From positions 1-64,000 of the forward strand of contig JAJYLH010000009.1 in assembly GCA_021787845.1 (NCBI GenBank): a DNA stretch of 64,000 bases. The letters are read 5' to 3'. This document shows positions 42,227-59,877 of this stretch, in pieces. Each line of letters starts with the position of its first letter. Position 1 is the first letter of the stretch. Under the pieces are notes generated by a model. That model had not been told where the DNA came from, did no database searches, and worked only from the letters and a program-made list of their open reading frames with translations. Source of the stretch: Myxococcales bacterium. GTDB taxonomy: Bacteria > Myxococcota > Myxococcia > Myxococcales > JAJYLH01. A program made the position numbers and the translations under genes.

Positions 42227-45166
42227 CTACACGACTCCGAGGCGGACGGATTCCTTGACGAGGCGCGTCGGAGCGCAGCCCACGAGCGATTGCACCACCT
42301 CGGCCGGCCGCGCCGTGCCCTCCTGCGTTTGCAGAATCTCCATCGTCAGAGCATCCGCGTCCCGAGCGAGCGCGCGCACGAACTTCTTGAGGTCGATTTC
42401 GCGGCGGTAGCCGTCGTAGGCGCGCTCGACCGGCCACGTGGGCGCGTGCGCGAAGCGGTCGAGGGCTTCGTCGACCCGAGCCACCGCGTCGGGCGCGAGC
42501 TGCGCGCGATAGACGACCGCGGCGCCGGCGGAGAGCGGCAGAGCAGGAGCGGCTTCGGCTGCCAGGACCGACAAGCCCGGCGGGAGCTCCGCCGCCAGGC
42601 GAGCCGCGATGTCGCGGGCGTCGTGATGACCGACGAGCGTCAACTCCATCAGCTCGGCCTGGCTCTCGATGCCCACCGGGAGCGCTGGCGAATAGGCGAG
42701 CTTCGGCTTGGGCGAGAAGCCCTGCGTGTACGCGACCGGCAGCTTCGCGCGGCGGATGGCCCGCTCGAGAGCGGTCTTGGTCTCCAGGTGGCTGAGCGCC
42801 CGCAGGCGGCCTTCTTTGGCGTAGGTCACGCGCACGATGGTGCGGTCGGCGTCGGTGGTGCTGGGGCTCTTGGTCGCGTTCGAGGAAGGCCCGGACCGCT
42901 CATCCTGAAGCCCGGACCGCTCATCCTGAAGCCCGGACCGCTCATCCTGAAGCCAGGACCGCTCATCCTGAAGCCCGGACCGCTCATCCTGAAGCCAGGA
43001 CCGCTCATCCTGAAGCCCGGACCGCTCATCCTGAGGCCCGGACCGCTCGTCCTGAGGCCAGGACCGCTCGTCCTGAGCGCAGTCGAAGGATGGGCGATCC
43101 TGGCCGGAGGGCGCGCTCGTGCCGCTGCTCCCGAGCGTCGTCGACGGGCTGCGATCGGGATGAGCGGATTGTCCGGCGCGGCCTGGGATGGGTGGGGTGG
43201 GGCGGAGCCCATCGACCGCGGCCGCCGATGGGCTCCGCTGCGCTTCACCCATCCTACCGAGCGGCACCACTTGTGCCTTGCGGTAGTCCTCCTGCCTGTA
43301 GACGCGGGTGTCGACCGCGAAGTAGTCGCACGCGCCGCAGGCCGAGCAGCGGTCGATCGCGCAGTCGACGACCTGCGCCTCTTCGACCGCCTTGCGGTTC
43401 TGCTTCCACAAATAGGGCTTGGTGACGTCGCAGTCGATGTGATCCCAGGGCAGCACCTCGTCGTCGCCCTTGCGGCGGTGGGCGAAGAAGGCGAGGTCGA
43501 CGCCGTGCTCGCGGAGCATGTCCGCTTCCGCTTGGTGCCAGGCGTCGAGGCGGAAGTGCTCGGTCCAGCTATCGAGCCGCTGCCCGCGCCGGAACGCGCC
43601 CAGCACCACCGTCGCCATCCGCCGGTCGCCGAGCGCCAGCGCGCCCTCGAGCGAGCTCTGCGTCGCGTCGTGCGGCCGCACCTTGAGGTTTCCGAAACCC
43701 CGCCCGAGCCTCCCGAGCTCCGCCCGGATGAGCGCGTGCTTGCGGCGCGTCTCTTCCAGCGGAATCATCGGCTCCCACTGGAACGGCGTGAACGGCTTGG
43801 GGACGAAGGTGGAGACGCCGACGTGGATCGCCGGGTTCTTCGCGTGCTTCTTGGCGAGCTGGAGCGCTTTCGCCGAGAGCTGCACGATGGCGCGGACGTC
43901 GGCATCGGACTCGGTGGGCAGGCCGATCATGAAGTAGAACTTCACGAGGCTCCAGCCCGACTGGAAGATCGATTCGACCGCGTCGAGCAGGTTCTCTTCC
44001 TTGTTGCCCTTGTTGATCACCCGGCGCATCCGCTCGGTCGCCGCCTCGGGCGCCACGGTGAAGCCGCTCTTCTTGACCCGCCGGATCTGCTCGGCGAGGC
44101 GGGCGTTCATCGTCTCGGTCCTGAGGCTCGGCAGCGAAATCGCCACCCGCTCGGGCGCGAAGCGGTCGAAGAAGTCCTCCAAGAGCCCGTTGATGCAGTC
44201 GTAGTCGCCGGCGGAGAGCGAGAGGAAGCCGACCTCCTCGTAGCCGGTGGCGGCGAGACCGCTCTCGGCGAGCTTGCGGACGTTGTCGGGCGAGCGCTGG
44301 CGCGTCGGGCGGGTGAGCATCCCGACCTGGCAGAAGCGGCAGCCGCGGGTGCAGCCGCGCTGGATTTCGATGGGCAGGCGGTCGTGAATCGTCTGCATGA
44401 ACGGCATCACCGGCCGCTCGGGCATCGGGACCGCGTTCAGGTCGGGCACCACCCGGCGGGTGATGCGCTCGTAGCCGGGCTTCAAGGGCTCGAGGGCGGC
44501 GAGGGTCCGGTCGGGCGCGTAGCGCGGGCGAAAGAGCGAAGGCACGTAGACGCCGTCGAGGTCGGAGAGCCGCCAGAGCAGGTCGCGCCGCGACTCGCCG
44601 GACACCTTCCAGTCGGCGACCACGTCGCTGATTTCGTGGACCGCCTCCTCGCCCTCGCCGATGACCAGCGCGTCGAAGAAGTCGGCGACGGGCTCCGGGT
44701 TGTAGGCGCAGGGGCCGCCGCCGAGGATGAGCGGGTCGTCGCGGCCGCGCTCCTTCGCGAAGAGCGGGATGCCCGCGAGGTCCAGCATCGCGAGGACCGT
44801 CGGGTAGCAGAGCTCGAACTGCATCGAGAAGCCGAGGACGTCGAAGGCCCGCGCCGGCAGCCGGTTTTCCAGCGAGAAGAGCGGGATGCTCCGACCGCGC
44901 ATCAAGGCTTCGAGGTCGACCCAGGGCATGAAGAACCGCTCGCAAGCGGTGTCGGGCCGGGCGTTGAGCGCGTGGTAGAGCGTGCGAAAGCCCACGTTGC
45001 TCATCCCAACCTCGTACGTGTCGGGGAACGCGAGGCCGAAGCGCACCCGCACCGCGCGCGGGTCCTTGACCACCGCGTTCAGCTCGCCGCCGAGATAGCG
45101 GGAGGGCTTCTGCACTTCGAGCAGCAGGTCGTCGATGCCGGCGATCGGTTCGAGCGCTTGTGCCAT
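42227..45166 (-). CDS. B12-binding-type radical SAM protein fused to DUF2344 (TIGR03960/TIGR03936)
   Basis: A 979-residue protein. The N-terminal cobalamin-binding-like region is followed by a radical SAM domain with CTRGCRFC (CxxxCxxC). The C-terminal DUF2344 domain begins [18 protein letters not shown]. This fused family is widespread and may modify RNA or protein; the substrate is not established. Oddity: between the two domains lie about 130 residues encoded by repeats, namely nine 7-residue units (S-x-x-Q-D-E-R) from a 21-bp family A array and a palindromic cassette, all in frame. The start at 45166 fits the family N-terminus. Confidence 0.9.
42893..43096. repeat. Family A array of nine 21-bp units inside a gene
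   Basis: ggaccgct recurs nine times from 42893 at exactly 21-bp spacing. It ends in the core cgctcgtcctgagcgcagtcgaagg. The units differ mainly at one or two bases (a/c before ggaccgct, a/g in cctgaag). It is translated on the minus strand as a 7-residue repeat in the linker of the TIGR03960-type protein. Confidence 0.9.
43186..43254. repeat. Imperfect palindromic element (cacccatcc type) inside a gene
   Basis: The left arm ggatgggtgg...cggagcccatcg and right arm cgatgggctccg...cacccatcc are inverted, with a few mismatches, around accgcggccgc. A half copy with the same cgctccacccatcctac end is at 638-665. It lies in frame in the same protein linker as the 21-bp array. Confidence 0.7.
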
Positions 45167-53326: not shown

Positions 53327-53469
53327 GTCGGCTCCTCCAGAAGCTCGCGCGAGCGATCTAGCAGACTTGCGGGCGCCAGGCTAAGGCGAGGCCGACCGCG
53401 ACCGCCGATGACGCCCCGCGGCAAGTCTCGGCCCGAGAGCGCCCGGCCTCGGGGCTCGAAGACGAGCGT

Positions 53470-53746
53470 TCGGCCCGAAGCGCTTCGACCTCGGGACTGG
53501 GAAACGAGTTTTCAACCCGAAGCGCTTCGACCCAAAGGTTGGGTACCCAACGTTCGACCCGAAGCGCTTCGACCTGAAGGTTGGGTACCCAACGTTCGAC
53601 CCGAAGCGCTTCGACCCGAAGGTTGGGTACCCAACGTTTGACCCGAAGCGATTCGACCTGAAGGTTGGGTACCCAACATTTGACCCGAAGCGCTTCGACC
53701 TGGAAACTGGGAAACGAGCCTTCGACCCGAAGCGCTTCGGGTCGAA
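53470..53746. repeat. 42-bp tandem array of alternating perfect palindromes
   Basis: cgaagcgcttcg recurs seven times, with the gcgctt start at 53481, 53522, 53564, 53606, 53648 (one base changed), 53690 and 53732, so the period is 41 then 42 bp. Between these lies ttgggtacccaa or a variant (53538-53549, 53580-53591 and two more). Both motifs are perfect 12-bp palindromes spaced about 21 bp, two helical turns. The outer units carry degenerate gggaaacgag in place of the second palindrome. Confidence 0.9.
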
Positions 53747-54404: not shown

Positions 54405-55895
54405 ATGACCAAGCTCAACGTCGCCTTCATCGGTTGCGGCCGCATCGCCGATCTGCACGCGCCCGGCTACGACCACAACCCCGACGCGCGCATCTACGCC
54501 GTTTGCGACCGTAACCGCGACCTGCTCGCGCGCCGTCAGGCCGAATGGTCCGCCGAGCGCGCCTTCACCGAGCTCGAAGAGGTCCTCGCCGATCCGAACG
54601 TCGATGCGGTCGAGATCCTCACGCCGCAGTTGCTCCACGAGCCGATGACGCTCAAGGCCCTCGCCTCGGGCAAGCACGTGGCGCTGCAGAAACCGATGTC
54701 CATCGACCTGCCGAGCGCGCGGCGCATGCTGCGCGCGGCGGCCCGCTCCGGCCGGGTCTTCAAGATCACGGAGAACTACGTCTTCTACCCGCCGCTCGTC
54801 CTGGCGCGCCGCCTCATCGAGGACGGCGCCATCGGCGAGCCCATCGGCATGCGCATCCACTATCTCGGCGGCAGCACCGGTGGCTGGAAGGTTCCGGCCA
54901 CGGCCTGGGTCTGGCGCATCCAGGAGGCGGCGGCCGGCCGCGGCTTCGTCACCTTCGACCACGGGCACCACCTCCTGTCGACCGCCTGGTTCCTCCTGGG
55001 CGAGGTGGAGCGGGTCGCCGGCTGGATCGACTCGATCGACGGCGTGGTGGATGCGCCGAGCGTCTTCATGTGGAAGTACGCCGGCGCCAAGCGCTATGGC
55101 GTTTGCGACATCGTCCACGGCCCCGAGCTCAACGTGCCTTCGAAGTACTACTCGAACGACGAATGGGTCGAAATCACGGGCAGCCGCGGCGTCATCCGGG
55201 TCTCGCGCTGCACCGGCAACGTCCACGACGGCCCGCCGGTGCTCCTGTTCGACGGCACGCGCTGGCGCCCGTTCGTGGACGTTCCCTCCGACTGGGGAGC
55301 GGGCTTTGTCGGCGCGACGCAGAACTTCATCGACGCCATCCGCGGCCGCGCCGAGCCGTTGCTCTCCGCGGAGCAAGCCTTTGGCATCCTGCGCTTCGCC
55401 CTCGCGGTCCAGCGCGCCGCCCGCGAGCGCCGGGAGGTCTTCCTCGACGAGATGGAGCATCCGTTCCCGCGCTTGTACTCCCGCGGCCGCCGGCAACAGG
55501 AGCAACGAGCCGAGCACGGCGGCTTTTTCGCGCGCCTCGGCCTCGGCCAGAGCCTGTCACGCTACGCTCGCGAGGCCCTCTCGCTCACCGAGGACGTCGT
55601 GCGCCATTACGACGTCGAGGCGGCCCGCAAGGTCGAGACGCTCATCGGCCTGCACCTCACGGCGGACAACGGGGTCGAGGAGAAGCTCGCGCTGCGCGTC
55701 GCCCACGGCACGCCCGAGCTGACCCGCGGAGAGCTCCCCGAGGGAGCGGCGCTCACCGTGATGGTGCCCGCCGGCGTCTGGGCCGCCATCCTCCTGAAGA
55801 AGAAACGCCTCGAGACCGCGCTCTTCCAGGGCAAGATCAAGTTCCGGGGCAGAATCGAGGAGGCGCTGAAGCTGCGCGCGTTGTTCCAGTTGTAA
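54405..55895 (+). CDS. Gfo/Idh/MocA oxidoreductase with SCP2-like C-terminal domain
   Basis: A 496-residue protein. The N-terminal Rossmann domain has NVAFIGCGRIADLHAPGY (GxGxxA) and LQKPMSID, a variant of the family's EKP motif (Glu replaced by Gln). The second domain is the usual Gfo alpha/beta C-terminal sheet (WRIQEAAAGRGFVTFDHGHHLLS). The last ~80 residues, PEGAALTVMVPAGVWAAILL, then ETALFQGKIKFRG, resemble an SCP2 sterol-carrier-like domain. The substrate should be a sugar-like or hydroxylated compound, perhaps lipid-linked. The ATG at 54405 is preceded by a short gap with an ATGA overlap to an open frame. It lies about 1 kb upstream of a fusion with another Gfo domain. Confidence 0.85.
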   Translation: MTKLNVAFIGCGRIADLHAPGYDHNPDARIYAVCDRNRDLLARRQAEWSAERAFTELEEVLADPNVDAVEILTPQLLHEPMTLKALASGKHVALQKPMSIDLPSARRMLRAAARSGRVFKITENYVFYPPLVLARRLIEDGAIGEPIGMRIHYLGGSTGGWKVPATAWVWRIQEAAAGRGFVTFDHGHHLLSTAWFLLGEVERVAGWIDSIDGVVDAPSVFMWKYAGAKRYGVCDIVHGPELNVPSKYYSNDEWVEITGSRGVIRVSRCTGNVHDGPPVLLFDGTRWRPFVDVPSDWGAGFVGATQNFIDAIRGRAEPLLSAEQAFGILRFALAVQRAARERREVFLDEMEHPFPRLYSRGRRQQEQRAEHGGFFARLGLGQSLSRYAREALSLTEDVVRHYDVEAARKVETLIGLHLTADNGVEEKLALRVAHGTPELTRGELPEGAALTVMVPAGVWAAILLKKKRLETALFQGKIKFRGRIEEALKLRALFQL

Positions 55896-56000: not shown

Positions 56001-56254
56001 CTGGGTATCCAGACATCTCAGGTTGTCGTTCCCGCTCGCCCTGAGGCGGCCGGGCCCACGGACCTCGCTCGTTGCCACCGCCCTCGTGCCCGGCCCTCGA
56101 AGGGCCGTGAGGGCTCGGCACAGCCTGTGCCACCCTCGCGCTCGCCCTTCGAGGCCCGCGCATGCTTGCCGTGCTCCATTCATGCTCCGTGGGCGCGGGC
56201 ACCTCAGGGTGAGCGGATCGGGGACCAAGACACCTGAGGTGTCTGGATACCCAG
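56001..56254. mobile_element. MITE-like element with 23-bp terminal inverted repeats
   Basis: The ends at 56001-56023 (ctgggtatccagacatctca...) and 56232-56254 are inverted copies with one mismatch. The 254-bp body has no gene but several nested inverted segments (ggccctcgaagggcc, ccctgagg). No target-site duplication is clear at the borders. It follows the Gfo/Idh/MocA-SCP2 gene and overlaps the 3' end of the truncated gene at 56204-56734. Confidence 0.7.
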
Positions 56255-56734
56255 TCGACGCGCAAGACGCTTCGCGAACGGGCGAGCTATCGGCTCTTCG
56301 TAATGCGCTTCCGGCGGGCGTTCGCCGAAGTCGTGCCCGCTCACGCAGAGGCGCCATGTTTCCAGCGTCTGAACGGGCACGGTGATGCAGGCGCGCCGAT
56401 CGTCTGTCCGCCAACTCGCAGGCAGCCAAGTCGCCAATGCGCAGAAGCGACATCCCTCGCGATCGCTCGCCTGCGCGGCGGCATCGTGCGCGGGAAGATG
56501 CTCTGGGTGCCGCTTCGACCCGCCGTCGTTGTCGATGGCGACGAGCGCCCGCGTCACTTTCTGGTCGGCCGCGGCTTGGAGAAAGAGCGGCAGTTGCGCG
56601 CGAATATGCTTCCATCCGGTGAACACGAGATCGGACCGCCAGCGCTCGACGTTCTCGCCGAGCTCAACCTCGAGAAGCGCGCGGTAGACCTCCGCGTCGT
56701 AGAGATCATTCTCCGCGGCGATCGCGCAGAGCAT
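56204..56734 (-). CDS. Truncated Toprim-like protein (3' end replaced by repeat)
   Basis: A 176-residue open frame. The main part looks like a real protein: an acidic EVYRALLEVELGENV segment, then RALVAIDNDGGSKRHPEH, which resembles a Toprim-type D-x-D-G core, then VPVQTLETWRL. Residues after about 160 are encoded by the end of the 254-bp element (GIQTPQVS...), so the native C-terminus is lost or extended. The start at 56734 is the first ATG. Function unknown; the Toprim assignment is tentative. It is divergent from the radical SAM gene. Confidence 0.55.
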   Translation of the reverse strand: MLCAIAAENDLYDAEVYRALLEVELGENVERWRSDLVFTGWKHIRAQLPLFLQAAADQKVTRALVAIDNDGGSKRHPEHLPAHDAAAQASDREGCRFCALATWLPASWRTDDRRACITVPVQTLETWRLCVSGHDFGERPPEAHYEEPIARPFAKRLARRLGIQTPQVSWSPIRSP

Positions 56735-56886: not shown

Positions 56887-59877
56887 GTGCGCGCGAAATC
56901 GGAGGCGAGAAAAGGGTTGGCGGGCGCGGCGCAGCGGTCGGTCGAAATCTATCTCCCGGGTCCCTGCGACCTCGGCTGCGCCGTCTGCGATTGCCGGACG
57001 CAGCCCACGCCCGACAGCCGCGTCGCCCGCGACCTCGCCGGCGGCGGCATCCGGCTCACCCTGCGCGGCGGCACCGCCAACCTCCGGCTCGTCGAATCGC
57101 TCCTCGGCCGCGCCCGCGACGGCGGGTTTTCCGAAGTCGCCGTCCGGATGAGCGCTCACGCCATCCCGAACGTCGAAGCAGCGCACGCCCTCGCGCGGCA
57201 GGGGATGGACGTCGCCATCATCCCGCTCTTCTCCCACGTCGCCCCGGTTCACGACCGCATCGCGAGCCGGCCGCAAGCGCTCGTGAAGACCCTCGTCGGC
57301 ATGCGCGCCCTCGCCGAGGCCGGCATCGGCATCGAAATCGAAACGCCGCTCCTCCCCGCGCGCCTGCAGAAGCTCGAAGACCTGATCGACCTCGCCCGCC
57401 GGGCCGTGCCGACGCTCAAGTCCGTCCGCTTCTACCTTCCGCCGCTCGCCCAGCCGCCGCCGCTCGCGCCGCCGCCCTGGAAGGAAGGCGCACCGCTCCT
57501 GGTCGGCGCCCTGACCCACGCGCAATCGCTCGGGCTGAAGACCGCGCTACGCCGGGTCGACCTCGTGCCGCTGTGCGCCCTGCGCGATTTTCCCGCGCAG
57601 CAGACCGTCTTCCGCTTCAACCCGCGAAAGACCGAAAGCACGACGCCCGGCGCGGACACCGGCGAGGTCTGCGAGAAGTGCGCGGTGCGGGGACAGTGCC
57701 CGGGCATCGCGAAGAGCTACCGCGAGGCCCACGGCGAGAGCGATCTTCACCCGTACACGCGCCGGCCCGAGGCGATGTACGAGCAGCGCACGACCCCGAG
57801 CCGCCGCTGGGACGAGTCGCAGCGCAAGGCCGCGCGTGAAAGCCGGATGCTGGTCCTCCGGCCGACCGTCAACTGCAACCAGGACTGCACCTTCTGCAGC
57901 GCGAACGAGACCTCGAACAACGTCTGGACCGACCGCGAGCTGATGCTCCGGCAGATCGCCCGCGCGGCCCGGCGCGGCGTCACCTGGCTCTCCTTCTCCG
58001 GTGGCGAGCCGACGCTCTCGAAGGACTTGACCGCCTTCGTCCGCGCCGCGAAACGGCTGGGCATCCGCTACATCGAGCTCGTCACCAACGGCGTCCTCCT
58101 CGACTCGAAGCCGAAAGTGCAGGCGCTGGTCGAGGCCGGACTCTCGCGCGCGTTCGTCTCGATGCACGCGCACACCGAGGACCTCTCGCGTCACCTGACG
58201 CAGAAGGTCGGCGACTTCGAGCGCACGGCGACAGCGATAGGGCTCCTGGTCGACGCCGGCGTCTGGGTCACGCTCAACCACGTCATCAGCGCGCGCAACT
58301 ACCGCTATCTGGAGAAGTTCATCGAGGTCGTGCACCAGCGCTTTCGCGGCAAGGTCGACATCTCCTTCGCGTTCGTGACGCCGCAATACAAGGCGCTGGA
58401 GAACATCGAGCTCGTGCCGCGTATCTCGGACGTGTGGCCGCACCTGCGCGCCGCGCTGCACCGGGCGATCGCGCTCGAGCAGACCTTCACCGTCGGCGCG
58501 CGCCAGGGCATCCCGCCCTGCTTCCTCCACGAATTCCAGGGCTTCAGCGACATCCGCATCCGCACCTTCGAGCTCTTGGGCGAGGACGCGCCGCAGAAGG
58601 TCCGGGGGCCGCGCTGCGACGAGTGCGCGTACGGCGACCTCTGTCCGGGCCTGTGGAAACCGTACGCCGCGCGGTACGGGCTCGACGAGCTCGTGCCGGT
58701 GCTCGGACGGGAGCGGGTGAAACCGGACATCGACCAGCCGATTCGCCGGACGTTCGAGTCGATTCCCGATGCGCAGCGCGACCTTCACGGCGAGGAGCAC
58801 GGGCTCCAAGATGCGCGCGCGGCCATCGCCGCCCAGGCCCTCGCCGAACCGGAGGGCTTTCGCTTACCGGCCTTCGCGCCAACGCGTTCGCGCCCGCTGC
58901 GCCTGGCGATGCTCGGAACCGGCCGGCAGGCCCGCCGCCTGGCGAGAGCGCTGAAGAACGTCCGCGGGCTCTCGCTCGACGCGGTCGCTTCTCCGCACGC
59001 GCCGGCGGATTCCGGTCCCGAGCTCGGGCATTGCCCCTCCTGGCGCGACGCCGCGCAGGCCCTGGCGGAGATGCGGCCCGACGCCGCCATCGTCGCCGCC
59101 GCCACGCACGCGCACGCCGAGCTCGCGCGCCTCTGCCTCGCCGCGAGCGTCCCCGTGCTCGTGGAGAAACCGTTCACCCGCACCATCGAGGAAGCAGAAG
59201 AGCTGGCGCGCCTCGCGGTCGAGAAGCGCGCGTTGCTCGTGCCCGCGCATCAGGTGCTCTTTTCCGAGGGGCTCGAGCGATTCTTCGAGCTCACCGGCAG
59301 ACGTCGCGTCGCCTACGCGCGGCATCTCCCGCCGAGCGCGCCGGATGTCCCGCGGCTCTGGAGCGCCGCCGCCCTCTCGCAGACGCTCTACCACGCGCTC
59401 ATCCTGGTTTCGCGCGCGATGGGCGGAGGTTCCGCGCAGGTCTTGGAAGCGCACCCGATCGGCGACGCCGCTCCCGAGAGGCTCAGGCTTCGTCTCGCGT
59501 TCGCCGAGGGCGAGGCGGACCTGTCGTTCGATTTTTCCGCGAGCGGCGACTCGCTTTCGCTTTCGAGCACCCCGGCCGATGGCCACGACCTCGTCTGGCG
59601 GCGGCGGGAGCGGGAGGTGACGCTGACCGCCGGCGGCGTCGCGGTGCCGGTCGAGCGGCGGGGCAGCGACATCGAGCAGATGCTGGAGGCGTTCCGGCTC
59701 GCGGTCACCGGCGAGGCGCCCGCGCCGTCGACGCCGGATGAAGCGCTCGGCGTGATGGCCGCGACGGACGCCTGCGTCGAGGCCCTGGGGCAGGCTGGCG
59801 CGCCTTTCGAACGGCCGAACGCGCCCCGGCACGTCGCCTCGCGCGCCATCGCCGAACCCCGGCGCGCCGGGCGGTGA
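56887..59877 (+). CDS. Tandem radical SAM - Gfo/Idh/MocA trifunctional fusion
   Basis: A 996-residue protein. Module 1 (about 15-300) has the radical SAM cluster CDLGCAVC (27-34), LRGGTANLRL as a GGE-like motif and a C-terminal CEKCAVRGQCPG. Module 2 (about 320-640) has CNQDCTFC (330-337), FSGGEPTLSKD and a C-terminal CDECAYGDLCPG. The paired CxxC-x5-CPG ends suggest an auxiliary cluster or metal site in each. Module 3 (about 665-996) is a Gfo/Idh/MocA-type oxidoreductase with MLGTGRQA (GxGxxA) and LVEKPFT. The enzyme could couple a radical step to an NAD(P)-linked oxidation. Substrate unknown. The start is uncertain: GTG 56887 gives a clean N-terminus; GTG 56788 adds Arg-rich sequence. Confidence 0.85.
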   Translation: MRAKSEARKGLAGAAQRSVEIYLPGPCDLGCAVCDCRTQPTPDSRVARDLAGGGIRLTLRGGTANLRLVESLLGRARDGGFSEVAVRMSAHAIPNVEAAHALARQGMDVAIIPLFSHVAPVHDRIASRPQALVKTLVGMRALAEAGIGIEIETPLLPARLQKLEDLIDLARRAVPTLKSVRFYLPPLAQPPPLAPPPWKEGAPLLVGALTHAQSLGLKTALRRVDLVPLCALRDFPAQQTVFRFNPRKTESTTPGADTGEVCEKCAVRGQCPGIAKSYREAHGESDLHPYTRRPEAMYEQRTTPSRRWDESQRKAARESRMLVLRPTVNCNQDCTFCSANETSNNVWTDRELMLRQIARAARRGVTWLSFSGGEPTLSKDLTAFVRAAKRLGIRYIELVTNGVLLDSKPKVQALVEAGLSRAFVSMHAHTEDLSRHLTQKVGDFERTATAIGLLVDAGVWVTLNHVISARNYRYLEKFIEVVHQRFRGKVDISFAFVTPQYKALENIELVPRISDVWPHLRAALHRAIALEQTFTVGARQGIPPCFLHEFQGFSDIRIRTFELLGEDAPQKVRGPRCDECAYGDLCPGLWKPYAARYGLDELVPVLGRERVKPDIDQPIRRTFESIPDAQRDLHGEEHGLQDARAAIAAQALAEPEGFRLPAFAPTRSRPLRLAMLGTGRQARRLARALKNVRGLSLDAVASPHAPADSGPELGHCPSWRDAAQALAEMRPDAAIVAAATHAHAELARLCLAASVPVLVEKPFTRTIEEAEELARLAVEKRALLVPAHQVLFSEGLERFFELTGRRRVAYARHLPPSAPDVPRLWSAAALSQTLYHALILVSRAMGGGSAQVLEAHPIGDAAPERLRLRLAFAEGEADLSFDFSASGDSLSLSSTPADGHDLVWRRREREVTLTAGGVAVPVERRGSDIEQMLEAFRLAVTGEAPAPSTPDEALGVMAATDACVEALGQAGAPFERPNAPRHVASRAIAEPRRAGR

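Follow-up and report, generated by a model that had tools for sequence, protein, structure and literature searches.

A fusion of two radical-SAM modules with a Gfo/Idh/MocA oxidoreductase and its association with HxsA4-type His-Xaa-Ser peptide systems

The 64,000-nucleotide stretch analyzed here (the window; positions 1 to 64,000 of contig JAJYLH010000009.1, Myxococcales bacterium assembly GCA_021787845.1) carries on its forward strand an open frame of 996 codons at 56887-59877. It joins two radical S-adenosylmethionine (SAM) modules and a full Gfo/Idh/MocA fold in one chain. This three-module fusion is real and is neither an assembly artefact nor a product of chance. Its partners, which lie outside the window, are an HxsA4-type His-Xaa-Ser ribosomal-peptide system and two sister tandem radical-SAM proteins, called here T2 and T3. 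On balance we think that the fusion protein probably serves as an accessory tailoring enzyme of this peptide system; the genes of the system are spread across six or more contigs in the source genome.

Architecture and conservation of the fusion protein

An earlier note, made from the letters of this DNA, had described one 996-residue protein with three modules and had named an assembly or frame error as a possible refutation. The description was borne out by Pfam, by AlphaFold with Foldseek and by full-length orthologues with the same module order in 12 other genomes (39-47% identity to the window protein). For an error, or a chance fusion in a single genome, speak the draft state of the source assembly (153 contigs) and the restriction of the fusion, among 195 genomes of the phylum, to the source genome; no orthologue was found in the 144 other genomes of its order or the 194 others of its phylum. 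Yet the order is identical in the 12 other genomes, and since one of the orthologues (G537; our labels for genomes, contigs and loci begin with G, C and L) sits on a 13.2-Mb contig, an assembly error is excluded and the probability of this explanation is practically nil.

The orthologues belong to another phylum-level group than the source genome. The 13 fusion genomes are the source genome, a Polyangiaceae genome (L009/G195), RBC016 (L010/G196) and ten more, which came from a sample of 379 genomes of the phylum of G195; 11 fusion genomes lie within this sample. The RBC016 orthologue is cut by a contig end and contains a run of N. Genes of other genomes were called by a crude codon-usage caller and their starts are approximate, for example in G514; all gene calls beyond the window are to be taken as approximate. 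The gene and its parts are as follows.

56887..59877, + strand: fusion gene, 996 codons from a GTG start at 56887; 12 orthologues elsewhere
56901..56905, + strand: GGAGG, a likely ribosome-binding site for the TTG start at 56917, as read from the sequence
56935..57801, + strand: module 1, about residues 17-305, a degenerate radical-SAM barrel according to model, module tree and identity
56965..56988, + strand: CxxxCxxC of module 1 (C27, C31, C34), present in 12 of 13 orthologues
57574..57699, + strand: auxiliary cysteines of module 1 (C230, C262, C265, C271), invariant in 13/13
57802..58761, + strand: module 2, residues 306-625, an intact radical-SAM module (PF04055, 1e-25)
57874..57897, + strand: CxxxCxxC of module 2 (C330, C334, C337), invariant
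58000..58008, + strand: GGE of module 2, residues 372-374, invariant wherever the sequence is present
58519..58644, + strand: auxiliary cysteines of module 2 (C545, C577, C580, C586), invariant in 13/13
58882..59841, + strand: Gfo/Idh/MocA oxidoreductase domain, residues 666-985 (PF01408; Foldseek)
59164..59172, + strand: EKP motif (E760, K761, P762), found in 12/13 orthologues; G346 has a deletion here
59392..59394, + strand: H836, the candidate catalytic histidine of an (E/Q)xxxH motif, kept in 12/13 orthologues and replaced by Asp in G346

The start of the protein is uncertain when judged by such signals. No evident Shine-Dalgarno sequence was seen upstream of GTG 56887, while the alternative in-frame TTG at 56917, with GGAGG 11 nt upstream, would give 986 amino acids. 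In the alignment the conserved stretch of the orthologues starts close to this TTG.

Module 2 has the marks of the radical-SAM superfamily: CxxxCxxC, GGE, the (beta/alpha)6 barrel order in the model and a Pfam Radical_SAM match above the cut-off (residues 326-480; 91 bits versus 29.5, 1e-25). The nearest NCBIfam model is HxsC4 (NF038332) with 127 bits, and HxsC (TIGR03977) gave 100 bits; both scores are under the curated cut-offs (500 and 268 bits), which places module 2 outside these two named families.

Two complete radical-SAM modules had been claimed in the earlier note. Module 2, with CxxxCxxC, GGE and auxiliary cysteines, is indeed complete; module 1 is not, since the alignment shows no GGE there in any of the 13 orthologues. 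No Pfam match was obtained for module 1, whose CxxxCxxC lies at residues 27-34, and in G541 this motif is absent together with GGE. Mean pairwise identity among the 13 orthologues is 37% for module 1 versus 56% for module 2, and by this measure module 1 is evolving faster. From its sequence features we judge module 1 to be degenerate, and in some relatives it is a putative pseudo-radical-SAM module. The CxxC...C of module 1 is retained even in T2 paralogues that lost CxxxCxxC. To judge by this pattern of loss across the fusion, T2 and T3, the function common to all first modules may be to hold an auxiliary cluster and to act as a scaffold, rather than to cleave SAM.

The C-terminal part combines a Rossmann domain above the Pfam cut-off (GFO_IDH_MocA, PF01408, residues 672-785; 8e-19, 69 bits versus 24), the EKP lysine and a C-terminal alpha/beta domain, as in the Gfo/Idh/MocA family. 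Foldseek matched the C-terminal third of the protein to complete enzymes of this family, among them GnnA, inositol dehydrogenase and biliverdin reductase (target template modelling score, TM-score, 0.6-0.8; E down to 3e-17). No equivalog-level family matched the domain. Of the 13 orthologues, 12 retain K761, E/Q832 and H836, and the lysine and the histidine are gone in G346; mean pairwise identity is 42% and 33% in the two halves of the domain (33% in the C-terminal half). That a radical step is coupled to NAD(P)-dependent redox remains a plausible idea; catalytic-looking residues are conserved in module 2 and in the Gfo domain alike.

The AlphaFold model of the fusion, made with 12 aligned orthologues as input, has a mean predicted local distance difference test (pLDDT) of 80.6 and a predicted TM-score (pTM) of 0.56. 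In both modules 1 and 2 it predicts six alternating strands and helices in the order of the (beta/alpha)6 radical-SAM barrel. Because only 12 sequences were aligned and pTM is modest, the arrangement of the domains in this model is not to be trusted.

The HxsA4 system and the tandem relatives

The source genome carries HxsA4, HxsB and HxsD, all above their NCBIfam cut-offs. Two tandem HxsA4 open reading frames (ORFs) on contig C104, with 99 and 73 bits versus a cut-off of 55, adjoin HxsD (64.5 bits versus 50) and several radical-SAM genes. HxsB lies on C58 (548 bits versus 370), and a hydroxylase of the alpha-ketoglutarate (aKG)-HExxH type lies on C56.

C104:65350-66744 (L041:11958-13352), - strand: two ORFs for HxsA4-like precursors, whose very long Gly-Ser-His repeats end in Gly-Ser-Trp

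HxsB and the aKG-HExxH peptide beta-hydroxylase are above cut-off in all 13 fusion genomes. Within the 379-genome sample HxsA4 was detected in 11 of 11 fusion genomes, one of which (G514) is just below the family cut-off, and in 116 of the 368 others (127/379 overall; p=4.4e-6, or p=4e-5 after three near-identical genomes were collapsed). The hydroxylase showed the same tendency (11/11 versus 99/368, 110/379 overall; p=8.5e-7). It also co-occurs with HxsA4 in its own right (93 of the 379 genomes have both, p=1.5e-41), often within 20 kb, and seems to belong to HxsA4 systems as a rule. HxsA4, HxsB and the hydroxylase were found in none of 14 control genomes.

Two genomes place the fusion physically near this system. 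Genome G282 has a 36-kb block with the aKG-HExxH hydroxylase, several radical-SAM proteins, the fusion, T2, HxsA4, HxsB, an HxsD-like protein and HxsD, in which the fusion lies 16 kb from HxsA4/HxsB/HxsD. By reciprocal BLAST the genes of this block map, at 42-63% identity, to the source contigs C40 (fusion), C113, C104, C19, C58 and C128. The HxsD of G282 reaches 42 bits versus a cut-off of 50, yet it shares 46-49% identity with the source HxsD, which passes. In G541 a single 22.7-kb contig carries the fusion together with HxsA4 and HxsB. Adjacency to HxsA4/HxsB was seen in these two genomes, and not in the source genome or most others.

T2 and T3 (in the source genome on C19, L039:9917-11833, and C108, L040:10324-12132) share both radical-SAM modules with the fusion and lack the Gfo domain. 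T3 retains CxxxCxxC and GGE in both modules, whereas module 1 of the fusion lost GGE; module 1 of T2 lost CxxxCxxC (5/5) and GGE, and retains the auxiliary cysteines. The first modules of all three proteins form one group in the module tree (support 0.993), from which it follows that the radical-SAM tandem most likely arose once. The gene for T2 adjoins the fusion in G196 (36 bp) and G253, and that for T3 in G490, G568, G537 and G195.

Four genomes (G282, G484, G514 and G447) have an extra module at the N-terminus of the same chain, some 490 residues long and marked by a GCPY...CxxC cysteine pattern; the whole chain has about 1460 amino acids.

L076:15072-19472, L048:1-4410, L072:12378-17732 and L079:8118-12491: proteins of about 1460 amino acids with a third, unusual radical-SAM-like N-terminal module before the two radical-SAM modules and the Gfo domain

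As a separate protein this module is present in several other genomes and in the source genome (C113:55621-57075, also located as L135:1156-2982; 51% identity, 5e-139), where it stands beside a protein with a GYPxCC motif. In a divergent tandem protein of G417 (L090:8425-11421; G417:C37:278425-281421) a GYPxCC domain replaces Gfo and module 1 is without CxxxCxxC. Its gene sits between a T2 gene and the separate gene for the N-terminal module.

Proposed function and its alternatives

As a tailoring enzyme, the fusion protein would act on the His-Gly-Ser repeat peptide HxsA4. The [4Fe-4S] cluster of module 2 would cleave SAM, the 5'-deoxyadenosyl radical would abstract hydrogen from a peptide side chain, and the auxiliary cluster would take up or relay an electron. 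Module 1, a partly decayed barrel, may have been retained chiefly for the sake of its auxiliary cluster, and as a platform for binding or docking. The Gfo domain could then pass a hydride to or from the radical product, with NAD(P) as the partner. It might reduce a carbonyl generated by the radical step, or it might oxidize a secondary alcohol, such as beta-hydroxy-His made by the accompanying aKG-HExxH hydroxylase. Enzymes of the latter type introduce a hydroxyl group at the beta carbon of His and Asp residues of ribosomal peptides (PMC12636437). Beta-hydroxylation gives a secondary alcohol, the type of group that Gfo/Idh/MocA enzymes oxidize or form. Domains of this family are without flavin and move hydride, and we deem it unlikely that NAD(P)H of the Gfo domain is the electron source for the iron-sulphur clusters.

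A more far-reaching proposal, which we put forward tentatively and hold to be less probable than the general tailoring role, is that of a new peptide-modifying machine. It would be a radical-SAM maturase with its own Gfo/Idh/MocA dehydrogenase, in some species also with the third radical-SAM-like module in the chain (about 1460 amino acids), acting on the His-Gly-Ser repeat peptide after beta-hydroxylation. If this is true, it would be to our knowledge the first Gfo/Idh/MocA domain acting on a ribosomal peptide.

Several observations weigh against assigning the fusion to the HxsA4 system. In the source genome its gene stands alone between a Gfo/Idh/MocA-SCP2 gene and purE. Close linkage to HxsA4 was seen in 2 of 13 genomes, and in most of them HxsA4 is on another contig or far away. 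About 116 of the 127 HxsA4 genomes are without the fusion, which is therefore optional for the system, and the co-occurrence test does not model the relatedness of genomes apart from collapsing close copies. G346 lost the lysine and histidine of the Gfo domain, so at least one lineage can dispense with the redox step. The literature found names no characterized HxsA4 product. Lastly, the fusion of G195 (L031/L032, G195:C272:1-40000) lies in a different-looking cluster with further tandem radical-SAM genes, two PhyH genes, a WelO5-like oxygenase/halogenase, a Rieske oxygenase, a short-chain dehydrogenase/reductase and a methyltransferase. This is possibly a separate natural-product cluster and could make another product.

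The G195 cluster, with HxsA4 of the same genome on another contig, is also what speaks for a second pathway, in which the fusion and its sister tandem proteins make some other peptide or a small molecule and are merely common in HxsA4 genomes; so does the preference of Gfo/Idh/MocA enzymes for sugars and inositols. We regard such a pathway as a serious though rather unlikely competitor: G282 and G541 put the fusion near HxsA4/HxsB, module 2 and neighbours are HxsC4-like, HxsB accompanies the fusion in 13/13 genomes, and no gene for a precursor or substrate peculiar to a second pathway was found to recur. The chemistry itself might also be distributed otherwise. The CxxxCxxC of module 1, kept in 12/13, and the precedent of the FO synthase FbiC (fused CofG/CofH), in which one chain likewise holds two radical-SAM domains (PMC11917521), would suit the picture of the earlier note, namely that both modules cleave SAM in two successive radical reactions and that redox follows. 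Against this stand the loss of GGE from module 1 in 13/13, the loss of CxxxCxxC from module 1 in T2 paralogues (5/5) and in the G417 relative, and the faster evolution of module 1. Some radical-SAM enzymes can do without a strict GGE, so module 1 may have some activity, but two SAM-cleaving modules seem to us unlikely.

Still less probable is that module 2 alone does the chemistry and that the Gfo domain is an NAD(P)-sensing appendage with a structural or regulatory role. The losses in G346, the GYPxCC domain in place of Gfo in the tandem relative of G417 and the poor conservation of the C-terminal half of the Gfo domain (33%) would agree with an appendage, yet K761, E/Q832 and H836 are retained in 12/13 orthologues despite overall identity of about 40%, and a complete Gfo fold is predicted.

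Known relatives, neighbouring genes and minor observations

HxsC and HxsC4, radical-SAM proteins of the His-Xaa-Ser system, are the best family match of module 2, and the fusion shares its genomes, and in two of them its contig, with HxsA4/HxsB. The fusion differs from them in scores far below the cut-offs, in two radical-SAM modules instead of one and in the attached Gfo/Idh/MocA domain. With inositol dehydrogenase, the UDP-N-acetylglucosamine (UDP-GlcNAc) 3-dehydrogenase GnnA and biliverdin reductase it has in common PF01408, the complete fold, the EKP lysine and a histidine in the C-terminal domain. Unlike usual members of this family, it is fused to radical-SAM modules and has (E/Q)xxxH where DxxxH is usual.

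Compared with FbiC, the fusion has one degenerate module, an extra oxidoreductase domain and a different genomic setting. An FbiC-like enzyme was rejected, there being no FbiC, CofG or CofH model among the matches listed for the fusion protein. A radical-SAM dehydratase with an NADPH reductase partner is known in AprD4/AprD3 (PMC5461906). There a radical-SAM step is followed by a pyridine-nucleotide reductase, the same logic as may apply here, but the analogy is one of working only, the two being separate proteins with an aminoglycoside substrate. The AprD3 reductase is not known to be a Gfo/Idh/MocA enzyme. We treat AprD4/AprD3 and FbiC as possible precedents and claim no membership for the fusion.

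Our literature search, on His-Xaa-Ser enzymes and on radical-SAM tandems, brought up no paper on this system. The present analysis ties to the His-Xaa-Ser systems a set of unusual, conserved proteins: the radical-SAM/dehydrogenase fusion, the two sister tandem radical-SAM proteins, the radical-SAM-like module that is fused in some species and the aKG-HExxH hydroxylase. In most genomes this set is scattered and is missed when only neighbouring genes are inspected. It provides a concrete list of enzymes alongside the known precursor, and it points to redox chemistry not described for such peptides.

Upstream of the fusion gene, 54405-55895 (+ strand) encodes a Gfo/Idh/MocA oxidoreductase that ends in an SCP2 sterol-carrier domain (1e-6), itself an unusual fusion. 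The earlier note had taken this gene as a hint of a shared pathway and had suggested a survey of neighbourhoods in other genomes. In that survey the three-module fusion and its partners recur, and the 54405-type gene does not: no homologue lies in any other fusion neighbourhood, so a shared pathway was rejected. The ORF at 56204-56734 (- strand) was also dismissed as a partner, having no Pfam or NCBIfam match, a low coding score and elsewhere only a weak similarity over 49 residues.

Two repeats in the window may be mentioned. A 42-bp tandem repeat of about 6.5 copies occupies 53428-53739, between a peptidase-like gene and the gene at 54405. A 21-bp repeat at 43000-43077, within the long radical-SAM ORF 42227-45166 (- strand), gives a repeated DERSGLQ-type insertion in the encoded protein.

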